Assembly (NCBI GenBank): GCA_031254105.1
Contig: JAIRVB010000021.1
Span: forward strand, 1 to 64,000
DNA from: Chitinispirillales bacterium
Lineage (GTDB): Bacteria; Fibrobacterota; Chitinivibrionia; Chitinivibrionales; Chitinispirillaceae
Length of the DNA stretch: 64,000 nt
Direction: 5' to 3'
Positions 13,455-18,796 of the stretch are shown here, piece after piece. The position numbers and the translations under genes are program-made. Within the stretch, counting starts at the first letter, position 1. Each line of letters opens with the position of its first letter. A model generated the notes under the pieces. The model ran no database searches and was not told the origin of the DNA. It saw nothing but the letters and a program-made list of their open reading frames with translations.

Positions 13455-13994
13455 ATGAGAGCAAAAATGTTTCTATGTTCTATGCTAATTTTGTCCATGC
13501 TTCTGCCTGCTGCCGGATGGTCGCGGGAAACACAGAGGCGAGACCGCCATCCCATGAAGAAGAAGATGGAAAAACTCGGTCTTACCTCTCAGCAGGAAGC
13601 TCAACTCAAAGAACTTCATACGCAAACCGCCCCAGTCAGAAAAGAGCGGATGGGAAAGATTAAAGAGCTGCGGGGAGAAATAAAACAGGAATTGCTTAAG
13701 GATAAACCATCCAGGACTGCTTTAGATAACTATGCCGCGCAAATGGGTAATCTTCACAAATTACAGAATGAAGAGTCCATTAAACATCTGCTCAAGGTAA
13801 AGGAGATATTGACCCCTGAGCAGTTTGTCAAATTTACAGATAAGGGCCTTATGGATGGCCCGGGCGCACGCACGCATAATAATAAAAGCGATGGTTTTCA
13901 TAAAAAATGCGATTCGGAAAAACACCGCGCGCACAAACAGAAATGCGCTGACTGCGACAAAGATGGAGCTTGCTGTAAGAAAAAAGGTAACTAA
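13455..13994 (+). CDS. periplasmic Spy/CpxP/CnrX-like protein with Cys-His-rich tail
   Basis: 179 residues with a signal peptide (about 1-23, cleavage near AAGWS) and a ribosome site (AAAGGGG). The central part is helical and charged with LGLTSQQEAQLKEL and ILTPEQFVKF, the two LTxxQ motifs of Spy/CpxP chaperones and of the CnrX/NccX metal sensors. The last ~40 residues are packed with Cys, His and Lys (HKKC, KQKCADCDKDGACCKKK), a plausible site for Cu, Zn or Ni. As third gene after an ECF sigma factor it probably senses periplasmic metal or misfolding. The IS remnant begins 1-2 bases after its stop. Confidence 0.78.
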   Translation: MRAKMFLCSMLILSMLLPAAGWSRETQRRDRHPMKKKMEKLGLTSQQEAQLKELHTQTAPVRKERMGKIKELRGEIKQELLKDKPSRTALDNYAAQMGNLHKLQNEESIKHLLKVKEILTPEQFVKFTDKGLMDGPGARTHNNKSDGFHKKCDSEKHRAHKQKCADCDKDGACCKKKGN

Positions 13995-13995
13995 A

Positions 13996-14069
13996 CAGTG
14001 TCTACGCAAGATATTAACAATTTGATTTTTGATATTATAATTTCGTATGTAAGGGGATATTACATATGA
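13996..14069 (+). mobile_element. left end of an IS5-like element, interrupted at the transposase start
   Basis: Begins CAGTGTCTACGCAAG and runs to a ribosome site (AAGGGGATAT) and ATGA. The same stretch recurs with substitutions at 15800-15873, where it leads into an IS5-type transposase fragment. Here the group II intron starts directly after ATGA, so the rest of the transposase is missing. Confidence 0.6.
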
Positions 14070-15005
14070 GTGCGCCAGTTCGGTGCATATAATATAGCGT
14101 GGCGAGCATACAAATGTATTATATGCATACCTGGGAGGTCTGATGGTTTCCGGCAGTATTTTTTTCTGCCCGGTAAAGGTGAGCGAAGTTCTGAGAAAAG
14201 ACGGAGTGAGCCATACAGATCATCAGAAGTCGGATTATCCCATATTAGCGCAGAACCGCATGAAAATGCGTGGAGCGAATGGGGTAACAAGTCAGTGATT
14301 CCTTTTAACGAAATACGTATGGCACCGGAGGTCAAATGAGCGCGGAACATGAGTTTAAAGGAATAAAGTATCAGTCCCAAAGATATGCGCGTGTACAAAC
14401 GTTAATGCATAATGTAAACGAAGAATCCCTAAGGGAGAAACATCGCAAACAGGAATGCAGGAAAGCCAGTGGAGTAAACGGAGTAACCAAAGATGTGATG
14501 TTTGGCCGAAGATAAAACACGAATACTTCCAATGGGACGGTTCAAAGGCACTAAAGAAAAGTTCGACTTCTTAGGATTTACGTTTTACAATGCTAAAACG
14601 CGAGAAAGCAGATACAGAGTTGGCGTGCGCACGAGCAAGAATAAGCTAAAAGGCAAACGGTAAAAGAGTGGATAGGAGGAAGACGTACAAAACCGGTATC
14701 ACAGACAGCGAAGTCAATAGCTGCAACCCTTAAAGGTCACTGCAACTATTATGGAGTAAACGGTAATCTTGGAATGATAAGGAAATTTTACAGTTATGTA
14801 AAGTTTACATTCTACCGCATGCTTAACAGGCGCGACCAGAAAGGCAGATACCGTTATGAGAAATTCAAACGTCTATGGTACTTCTATGTCCAAAGTCCAC
14901 GACTGTCGGTAAATATTTGGAACTGAAACAGATGCTGATTTGAAGAGCCGTACGCGGGAAAACCACACGTACGGTTCTGTGAGGGGCAGCTAATTTTCCT
15001 CTCAC
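14070..15005 (+). mobile_element. group II intron remnant with intact domains V and VI
   Basis: The 5' end is GTGCGCC, a canonical group II start. Domain V spans 14945-14978 (34 nt) and has the AGC catalytic triad, GTAC stem and terminal GGTTCT. Domain VI follows (14979-15005), pairing GTGAGGGG with CCTCTCAC across a loop containing A residues for branching, and the element ends in AC. Total length 936 bases, far short of the ~2-2.5 kb of an ORF-bearing intron. The shortening is in the maturase gene, which lacks its reverse transcriptase core. It lies between an IS-like left end and the 39-aa-repeat gene. Domain I and IV details were not folded. Confidence 0.85.
14336..14926 (+). pseudogene. 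ltrA: group II intron maturase/reverse transcriptase, core deleted
   Basis: The ATG at 14336 (GGAGGT upstream) starts 59 codons that match the maturase N-terminus (MHNVNEESLREKHRKQ, KASGVNGVTKD), then a stop at 14513. The next readable part, RILPMGRFKGTKEKFDFLGFTFY, belongs near the thumb/X region. After a further frame change GHCNYYGVNGN and LNRRDQKGRY give the usual C-terminus, ending at 14926. All catalytic RT blocks, including YADD, are absent, so the intron cannot make its own maturase. Confidence 0.85.
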
Positions 15006-15035
15006 TGGGAACAAACTTTGAAAGGAACGTTTAAG

Positions 15036-15716
15036 ATGTTTACTCGACAAAAAAGTTTTTGTTTTACATTGATTTTATTCATTTTTGGGTTATTGTTTGT
15101 TCAGAATATTTTTGCTTCTGGTACAAGTGATGGATATTCTGGAGCAAAAAATTCGTTACAGAAATTCAAAAGTCGTTTTATTGAAATAATGGGCGACTGG
15201 GAATTTAACAGAATACGTGGTATCGATATACCTTCAGTATATTACGGAAGTCATGCCGGATCGCAAAATTCTCTACAAGAGTTTAAGAGACGCTTTAGCG
15301 AAATAATGGGCGACTGGGAATTTAACAGAATACGTGGTATCGACATCCATTCATTCTATTATGGAAACTATGCTGGATCACAAAATTCTTTACAAGAGTT
15401 TAAAAGACGTTTCATTGAAATAATGGGTGATAAGGAATTTAACAGTATACTTGGTATCGACATCCATTCATTTTATTATGGAAACTATGCTGGATCACAA
15501 AATTCTCTACAAGCGTTTAAAAGACGTTTCATTGAAATAATGGGTGATAGGGAATTTAATAATATACGTGGTATAGATATACCTTCAGTATATTATGGAA
15601 GTTATGCCGGATCACAAAATTCTCTACAAGGGTTTAAAAGACGCTTTAGCGAAATAATGGGCGACTGGGAATTTAACAGGATACGCAATATTGATGTACA
15701 TTTGTTTTATTATTAG
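15036..15716 (+). CDS. exported protein of five tandem 39-aa repeats
   Basis: 226 residues from the ATG at 15036, preferred because AAAGGAAC sits at the right distance; a TTG at 15018 is in frame but lies at the ribosome site. Signal peptide about 1-28 (FCFTLILFIFGLLF, cleavage near FASG). The rest is five near-identical 39-residue units with the consensus SLQxFKRRFxEIMGD, xEFNxIRGIDI and a YYG..AGSQN linker. Each unit looks like one or two amphipathic helices followed by an aromatic turn. I do not recognise the family. The last unit is truncated at FYY, the C-terminus. It begins 30 bases after the intron end. Confidence 0.75.
   Translation: MFTRQKSFCFTLILFIFGLLFVQNIFASGTSDGYSGAKNSLQKFKSRFIEIMGDWEFNRIRGIDIPSVYYGSHAGSQNSLQEFKRRFSEIMGDWEFNRIRGIDIHSFYYGNYAGSQNSLQEFKRRFIEIMGDKEFNSILGIDIHSFYYGNYAGSQNSLQAFKRRFIEIMGDREFNNIRGIDIPSVYYGSYAGSQNSLQGFKRRFSEIMGDWEFNRIRNIDVHLFYY
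15153..15713 (+). repeat. five 117-bp tandem coding repeats
   Basis: Units start at 15153, 15270, 15387, 15504 and 15621, exactly 117 bases (39 codons) apart. Units 2 and 3 share HSFYYGNYAGSQ; 1 and 4 share IPSVYYGS, a pattern expected from repeated unequal exchange. Confidence 0.9.
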
Positions 15717-15799
15717 TAAGTATCAATGGGCGTACTGCACATAACAGGCCTGTATGCGCTTCGCCGCCTTTCGGCGACTCGTGCTCCGTTTTTGCTAAG

Positions 15800-15985
15800 C
15801 AGTGTCTACGCAAGTCATTGCCGATTTGATTTTTGGTGTTATCATTTTATATGTAAGGAGATATTACCTATGAAAACATTACCAACCGGCATGACTTAAC
15901 AGACGGCCAATGGGCCAGGATCGAGCCTATAATAACAAATATGTTAGGTAACTGGGGCGGCAGCCTGCCGCCCATCCGCATATGA
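15800..15985 (+). pseudogene. IS5-family transposase fragment with its upstream end
   Basis: 15800-15868 repeats the IS end at 13996. From 15869 the frame reads YENITNRHDLTDGQWARIEPIITNMLG, the standard N-terminus of IS5-group (DUF4096) transposases, then runs into a GGCGGCA palindrome and stops at 15983. The ATG at 15870 is out of frame with it, so a frameshift is already present. Only ~38 of the usual ~250+ residues remain. Confidence 0.75.
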
Positions 15986-17737: not shown

Positions 17738-18796
17738 ATGAAAATCGATTCTTACGCGGTAGCAGTGTCTTCAACTTCTTCTTCGGTGAAAAGTTATTCT
17801 GTGACAGAGCAGATTGTTACAGGCGCACAAACTAATCCTGCTGGCGCTCAATCTTCAGGAAATACGCAAGGAGCTGTGCTGTTATCATTAACACCCGAGG
17901 GTGAAGAGCAGTCCGCAAACAATCAGGCCGTAGCGGCAAATGAGCAATCAAGACCAGCATCAGGTTTTAGTATCCCTGATAAGTACAAAGCAAGGCTGCT
18001 TATGGTTCAACAGCTTTACGAATCGCTCACAGGGAGAAAACCCATTTTTAACGTTCTTGACAACCTTTTTATAAACAACAGCCAGTTCAATAATGCTATC
18101 TCTCTTGCGCCAGCGCAGCAAACAGTTATCTCCTTACAGAGAACCGAAACCTATTACGAACGTCAAGAGATGTCTTTTCAGGCATCGGGTGTTGTAAATA
18201 CAGCTGACGGGCGGCAAATTACGTTTGATATGAACGTTATGATGAGCTACGAATTCTATTCATCAAATTCAACGGCAATACAACAGGCTGTACAAAATTT
18301 CCGGCTTTGCGATCCGCTTGTTATTAATTTTGACGGTAATCTTCCTGAGTTTACTGAAGACAGGTACAGCTTTGACCTTATAGTCGGCGGCGAACAGGAA
18401 AATATATTTATGCCGACAGGCGGCTCAGGATTTCTTGCCCTTGACAAAAACGGTAATGGCGCAATTGACGACGGATCGGAACTCTTTGGAGCCGCAACAG
18501 GCAACGGATTTGCCGAACTTTCGGCTTACGACAATGACGGTAACGGATGGATTGATGAAAATGATGCCATATTTGAAGATCTTAAAATAATGTTAATGGA
18601 TGAGAAGAGCGGCGAATATGTATTAATGTCTTTAAAAGACGCCGGTGTAGGCGCGATATTTCTTGGCTCAACAGCCAATGATTTTGAAATTAACAGCAGC
18701 CAAAACGAAACTCAGGGTGTGATACGAAGAAGCGGGTTTTTTCTTTATGAGAATGGGAATACGGGGACGGTACATCATATTGATTTGACATATTAA
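17738..18796 (+). CDS. EF-hand-like calcium-binding protein of unknown function
   Basis: 352 residues; the ATG at 17738 follows AGAGGAG. The N-terminus is Ser/Thr-rich with no signal peptide, like flagellin-associated or non-classically exported proteins. Two DxDxDG-type loops stand at 236-248 (DKNGNGAIDDGSE) and 265-277 (DNDGNGWIDENDA). The phrase DDGSELFG between them is typical of a family with paired calcium loops often found near hemolysin/RTX-type proteins. The C-terminal ~60 residues are beta-rich (VGAIFLG, GVIRRSGFFLYENG). It is alone, followed by a perfect hairpin. Confidence 0.7.
   Translation: MKIDSYAVAVSSTSSSVKSYSVTEQIVTGAQTNPAGAQSSGNTQGAVLLSLTPEGEEQSANNQAVAANEQSRPASGFSIPDKYKARLLMVQQLYESLTGRKPIFNVLDNLFINNSQFNNAISLAPAQQTVISLQRTETYYERQEMSFQASGVVNTADGRQITFDMNVMMSYEFYSSNSTAIQQAVQNFRLCDPLVINFDGNLPEFTEDRYSFDLIVGGEQENIFMPTGGSGFLALDKNGNGAIDDGSELFGAATGNGFAELSAYDNDGNGWIDENDAIFEDLKIMLMDEKSGEYVLMSLKDAGVGAIFLGSTANDFEINSSQNETQGVIRRSGFFLYENGNTGTVHHIDLTY

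Follow-up and report, generated by a model that had tools for sequence, protein, structure and literature searches.

Domain 6 of a group II intron as the probable source of the translation start of a gene for a putatively exported tandem-repeat protein in a Chitinispirillales bacterium

Background

Group II introns are usually considered harmless to the genes they enter only when they are spliced out. A stretch of 64,000 nucleotides from a Chitinispirillales bacterium (here called the window) carries a gene for a tandem-repeat protein next to remnants of mobile elements, and the locus raises the question of where this gene takes its translation start and what kind of protein it encodes. A Shine-Dalgarno (SD) sequence and an AUG hidden in the splicing helix of an intron could leave the host gene expressed from spliced as well as from unspliced RNA. 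Such a domain 6 (D6) would join splicing to translation in a single RNA switch, and it would account for remnants of introns having become permanent starts of host genes; the switch, if true, lets an intron enter genes at their start and yet keep them expressed.

The closest precedent is the C.te.I1 intron of Clostridium tetani, in which the start codons of downstream ORFs lie in domains 5/6 (D5/6) and unspliced RNA makes up ~75-95% of the mRNAs (PMC3919590). It has no intron-encoded protein and is found at one S-layer locus, where four D5/6 copies give rise to isoforms (PMC3919590). A start codon inside D6 is therefore already known. No report of an SD and an AUG placed together in the branch-point helix of dispersed, RT-encoding introns was found in our literature search (most subscription journals lay outside its scope).

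In this work we have analyzed the window locus and its relatives. The repeat ORF is a real, lineage-specific gene coding for a protein predicted to be exported, and its translation start was probably donated by a variant of group II intron.

Results and discussion

Structure and selection of the repeat gene

The features of the locus are collected in Table 1. The repeat ORF is intact, with 7-21 stops in the other five frames and an alternative TTG 18 nt upstream of its ATG. The five in-frame units spaced by 117 bp, reported in the initial annotation, were recovered by ORF prediction, by unit comparison and by TRF, which found a single array at the locus (15168-15713, period 117, 4.7 copies, 84% matches, score 714). 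Their similarity at the nucleotide level was likewise borne out, the identity between units being 73-88% for DNA and 68-90% for protein.

Table 1 Features of the repeat-gene locus and of the related Caedibacter locus (window positions unless another sequence is named)
Feature	Position	Strand	Remarks
IS-like 5′ end (RBS-like region and ATGA) as 5′ exon	13991..14069	+	84% identical to 15795-15873
Group II intron remnant	14070..15048	+	5′ end GTGCGCC; D5-D6 kept; losses in domain I and RT
Intron domain 5 (GAGCCGTACGCGGGAAAACCACACGTACGGTTC)	14945..14977	+	Rfam; strong fold, z -5.1 for 14938-15012
End of D6: SD-like AAGGAA, then ATGTTTACTCGAC	15022..15048	+	Rfam model end; common ends in relatives
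Repeat-protein ORF	15036..15716	+	226 aa, ATG start; exon part from 15049
Signal-peptide-like N-terminus MFTRQKSFCFTLILFIFGLLFVQNIFA	15036..15116	+	Hydropathy peak 2.9 and sequence
Five 39-aa units	15138-15254, 15255-15371, 15372-15488, 15489-15605, 15606-15713	+	TRF, unit comparisons
Second IS-like 5′ end leading into a decayed transposase-like frame	15795..15964	+	87% to contig C15 of the same genome (G000) over 179 bp
AUG-bearing D6 locus of Caedibacter pKAP298	L198 3002-3200

Between the units pS is 0.51 against a pN of 0.10, and omega is 0.08-0.24 per pair, which is a measure of past selection and not of current use. As synonymous change greatly exceeds non-synonymous change, purifying selection has acted on the units as protein for a long time. 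The intact frame, the good SD and these omega values argue against the ORF being a leftover of mobile DNA that is decaying or not expressed. Its low GC content (33%, GC3 26%, versus 42% for the window), its orphan status and the remnants on both sides would fit such an explanation, which we regard as improbable.

The mosaic pattern of the units noticed earlier (2/3 and 1/4) is real. In a Sawyer-type runs test, comparing the agreement of neighbouring variable sites between units with that of permuted sites, P was 1e-4 for all variable sites and 0.024 for silent codons only; units 1/4 and 2/3 pair in the last third of the unit, and 2/5 and 3/4 in the middle. The exchange was also taken to be recent; neither this nor a recent duplication is supported for the whole array, since dS between units is 0.35-1.5 and near-identity is limited to patches, so the array as a whole is old.

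An N-terminal export signal, also claimed at the outset, is predicted from a hydrophobic stretch; hydropathy and sequence would fit a Sec n-region, h-region and small-residue cleavage site. AlphaFold2 gave models of low confidence (pLDDT 55 for the whole protein and 40 for three units), in which the sole steady element is a recurrent helix of ~15 residues at NSLQEFKRRFIEIMG.

Search for relatives and the role of the protein

No credible relative of the repeat was found in its own genome, in 200 related genomes, in two GTDB-wide pattern scans, or in viral contigs, phages, plasmids and the PDB. The weak matches of the repeat searches score 10-18 bits, and some contain stops. Matches in Pfam, NCBIfam and PHROGs reach E ~1e-5, nearly all as sums over the repeats, and no single stretch passes. 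As controls, the columns of the unit were shuffled, five-unit proteins were rebuilt and seven of them were scanned; three of the seven passed the gathering cut-off of a Pfam family, the lowest E being 8e-8. Since shuffled repeats score as well, the weak family matches carry no weight. Two candidates were rejected in this way. For DUF3884 (PF13024, E 5.6e-5) no stretch passes alone and the shuffled controls are equal or better; for PGR5 (NF049860, E 7.7e-6) the 25.8 bits are summed over the units against a curated cut-off of 50, no single unit matches, and the own genome holds no PGR5 match. That the unit belongs to either family, as these E values might suggest, is refuted at the sequence level and can practically be dismissed; the earlier statement that no family is known for the 39-aa unit stands.

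The protein resembles exported tandem-repeat proteins of the solenoid type in its predicted signal peptide, short in-frame units, predicted recurrent helix and intragenic exchange, but differs from them in a unit that has no credible family in Pfam, NCBIfam, PHROG or the PDB. By inference only, it is possibly an extracytoplasmic (periplasmic or surface) helix-rich binding or scaffold protein; a surface or matrix role is a guess. The repeat protein is separate from the intron story and is a more ordinary orphan.

A second tandem-repeat ORF of 410 aa, open at the contig end, was seen on the minus strand of another contig of the same genome (L032 1-1230, contig C17). Its units, for example AIESEKLDLNQIMIVCEKSEWNKDICEV, are roughly 28 aa long and have no credible Pfam match, and it lies directly behind another maturase fragment of a group II intron (L032 1303-1395) that is 86% identical to that of the window.

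An accessory island with truncated IS-like ends

Gene order in two related genomes places the repeat gene in an accessory island: in the congener G001 uvrC directly follows the preceding gene (LTXXQ/metal-resistance family), and in G010 the orthologue of the window gene at 17738, the next conserved one, lies ~285 bp after it. The accessory location implied by the initial annotation is thus upheld. Its description of the flanks as IS remnants is right for the two IS-like 5′ ends of ~79 bp, which have the same orientation, while the upstream debris also includes a group II intron remnant. The upstream end is 87-92% identical to uninterrupted copies in contigs C15, C54 and C40, which continue with ATGAAAAC, ATGAAGAC or similar, whereas the 5′ exon in the window stops at ATGA. 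None of the IS-like fragments in these three contigs was seen complete.

The predicted signal peptide, the mosaic units and the island location could also indicate that mobile elements carry a surface or matrix protein that varies in phase or length, as the initial annotation proposed. We hold this to be rather unlikely, given the age of the array, the truncation of both IS-like ends, which leaves no intact mobile unit around the gene, and a search for a second copy of the gene for length comparison that yielded none.

The intron remnant upstream of the repeat gene

The Rfam model RF00029 matches positions 14943-15048 over its full length (1-77) with 42.8 bits, above the gathering score of 40, and its end at 15048 lies 13 nt inside the repeat ORF. 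This is the only RF00029 match in the genome. A GIIM maturase domain was found at 14651-14878. At the 5′ boundary the remnant begins with GUGCG (GTGCGCC at 14070) and aligns with the 5′ end of another intron: over 37 nt it follows the start of the intron L078 of G020, and the alignment then jumps downstream. Missing are ~200 nt of domain I and the greater part of the RT. The remnant therefore has neither a complete ribozyme core nor a complete RT, and with the core deleted its splicing should be impossible.

A candidate 3′ end at CCTCTCAC (15007) was ruled out by the ends shared among the G020 copies and by the Rfam model, which place it at 15048. These comparisons of sequence show that the 3′ end of the intron, in its D6, makes up the SD, the AUG and the opening 13 nt (ATGTTTACTCGAC) of the repeat ORF. 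The IS-like ORF of the 5′ exon is not continued on the far side of the intron, so this exon may have been joined to the remnant by recombination.

Related introns with the same 3′ end

The leader of the repeat gene shares a 62-bp match with contig C20 of its own genome. The same intron end was found in six copies in G020, in G032, G041 and G006, in C20, and in plasmid pKAP298 of Caedibacter taeniospiralis; the G020, G032 and G041 cases came from a similarity search with the D5-D6 end in which an SD was not required. The six G020 copies share everything, apart from one differing base, up to AAGGAG-AAACTTATA-ATGTCTACTCGAC; beyond that point their exons differ. In the three G020 copies scanned (L065, L067, L070), in G006, in G032 and in Caedibacter, the match to the Rfam intron model stops at this very base. 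The pattern of a D6 with SD and AUG is present in six of 168 genomes of the phylum, in one of them (G167) without D5, and never in a reversed control. In viral contigs seven matches to the AUG-D6 pattern were obtained, none with D5, and two D5-anchored patterns gave no matches. The ordinary RT-encoding introns of the phylum (e.g. L056, L059, L061, L063) have D5, a 3′ end of the type ...CTACTC[GA][AG]C and a bulged A in common with the variant, but their D6 loop is short and contains neither SD nor AUG.

G006 carries a complete intron with an RT frame of 449 codons; the introns of G032 and G041 are truncated. The relic in C20 (L033 1545-1557, contig positions 14382-14394) ends in ...ATGTCTACTCGAC at the junction with a 28-aa ORF, behind which lies a tandem array of exported paralogues of ~240 aa with repeated spacers. 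Many G020 contigs (L140-L197) end in a shared interspersed repeat, GGGGCTCTGCCCCGTAACGCCCC... with a GGATGTACACTGTACATCC palindrome.

When the G020 copies are read from the intron AUG into the exon, the products are an Hsp90 (MSTRQSMEFRAEAKQLLHLM...), a GT2 glycosyltransferase (MSTRRQENKNGDVSIVIPMYNE...), three lipoproteins, one of them a rhodanese, and in one copy a short ORF; in G041 the product is a YHS-type lipoprotein (30.2 bits, just under the cut-off of 30.3). Several of the genes entered in frame in this way are of full length, and they are unrelated. The frame is open for at least 100 codons at seven of the 11 junctions in the phylum versus 15% of random G020 positions (P 4e-4). As five of these seven come from one genome, and harmful insertions were possibly selected against, the excess shows compatibility with expression and is no proof of targeting. 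Short ORFs lie behind the other four junctions (C20, G006, G032 and one in G020), and likewise in Caedibacter. Exported proteins follow the intron in the window, in three G020 copies and in G041; by inference, this share may reflect signal peptides tolerating a few extra N-terminal residues that include arginine.

Orthologues place two of the G020 insertions near the gene start. Two GT2 orthologues read TTG-TTA-CAG-GAA-AAA and the exon behind the intron GT-CAA-GAA-AAT, an alignment that puts the intron directly behind the first base of codon 2. In the Hsp90 orthologues the junction falls within the first few codons, and ATGA in the window corresponds to the same point in codon 2 as in GT2. As the 5′ exon of G006 ends in ACACATAAA, not every member inserts behind a start codon. 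A search for the 5′ junctions of the G020 copies in the six junction contigs and 58 others found none.

Predicted fold of D6

In G020, G032, G041 and G006 D6 is predicted to form a single extended hairpin in which the branch-point A bulges out 7 nt before the 3′ end, the AUG pairs with CAU (CGU in G041) and the SD pairs with UCUCCU, CUUCCU or AUUCC. The z scores of the fold are -3.5, -3.7, -7.1 and -1.9, respectively, and the D6 of Caedibacter pKAP298 folds likewise, with UCUUC against GGAGA. For D6 alone the pairing probability is 0.96-0.99 for the AUG and 0.66-0.83 for the SD; with flanks included the fold is weaker in G041 and G006. In the window copy the canonical D6 pairs form at only 0.18, a loss as expected for a dead intron, though other bases still often pair with its AUG. 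Pair-keeping changes in the SD stem (C-G to U-A or U-G) support a conserved pairing, although with few sequences they are suggestive only.

The AUG belongs to the canonical D6 stem, and four of the 11 junctions lead nowhere, so that SD and AUG could be incidental: the AUG would simply be part of the stem, the in-frame genes would be survivors among tolerated insertions, and D6 would hold no dedicated start signal. This explanation appears unlikely, as an SD 6-9 nt from the AUG is kept in otherwise diverged D6 loops of several genera and of Caedibacter, as G020, G032 and G041 were found irrespective of an SD, and in view of the excess of open frames described above.

Splicing or translation from one helix

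We propose instead that the SD and the AUG of the variant D6 are a start signal, placed so that the last 13 nt of the intron, AUGUYUACUCGAC (phase 1), are read in frame into the exon. In a full-length intron the folding of D6 for splicing and the loading of a ribosome at the D6 start would be mutually exclusive. The host gene would then use its own start from the spliced mRNA and the start of the intron from the unspliced one. The reading frames agree for both forms, ATGN in the 5′ exon and the 13 nt of the intron each being in phase 1: in the window a spliced ATGA/AAAAAAGTTTTTG (the slash marks the junction) would read MKKSF, and the intron start reads MFTRQKSF. With no splicing, the repeat protein of the window would rely on the intron start. 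The weakest step of the proposal is the last, in which the five exported helix-rich units would act in extracytoplasmic binding or as a scaffold and would be kept alike by purifying selection together with intragenic exchange. N-termini reading MSTR or MFTR in such genomes are candidates for an intron origin and worth checking.

The broader view is tentative and stands somewhat below an even chance: a dispersed lineage of mobile introns, present in more than one phylum, would have locked a translation start into its branch-point helix as a splice-or-translate switch, and its dead copies would turn into starts of host genes. Like C.te.I1, the lineage has the start codon of the following ORF in D5/6 and exported or surface proteins as neighbours. 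Unlike C.te.I1, it includes an RT-encoding member (G006), its copies are scattered in front of unrelated genes, and SD and AUG are both predicted to pair inside the branch-point helix; several D5/6 copies serving alternative splicing were not found, the window genome having its one RF00029 match. The start codons in D5/6 and the abundant unspliced RNA known from C.te.I1 (PMC3919590) would also suit alternative splicing of that kind, with one 5′ exon joined to several downstream exons to yield isoforms. Such a mechanism is very improbable here, because the window genome has a single D5-D6 and a deleted ribozyme core, and the G020 copies lie on different contigs, where the genes behind them are unrelated.

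The intron of Caedibacter pKAP298 belongs to a distant phylum and shares with the lineage the AUG-bearing D6 with an SD (AGGAGAAACAGAAATGTCTACTCGAC) and the presence of an RT. It differs in that its D6 ORF, MSTRQKGAIA*, overlaps the start of the gene behind it (ATGA); this arrangement suggests that the two are translationally coupled and not fused.

A D6 with an SD-like AGGA and ATGAAAGAAAAATTATCACAGCATCTACCTAAC (33 nt, phase 0) was also observed in introns on plasmids of Ca. Megaera polyxenophila (L202, L203, L204). The 5′ exon ends in ATGAGT or TTGGGT (phase 0) in two of the three introns, and this D6 start is possibly an independent case.
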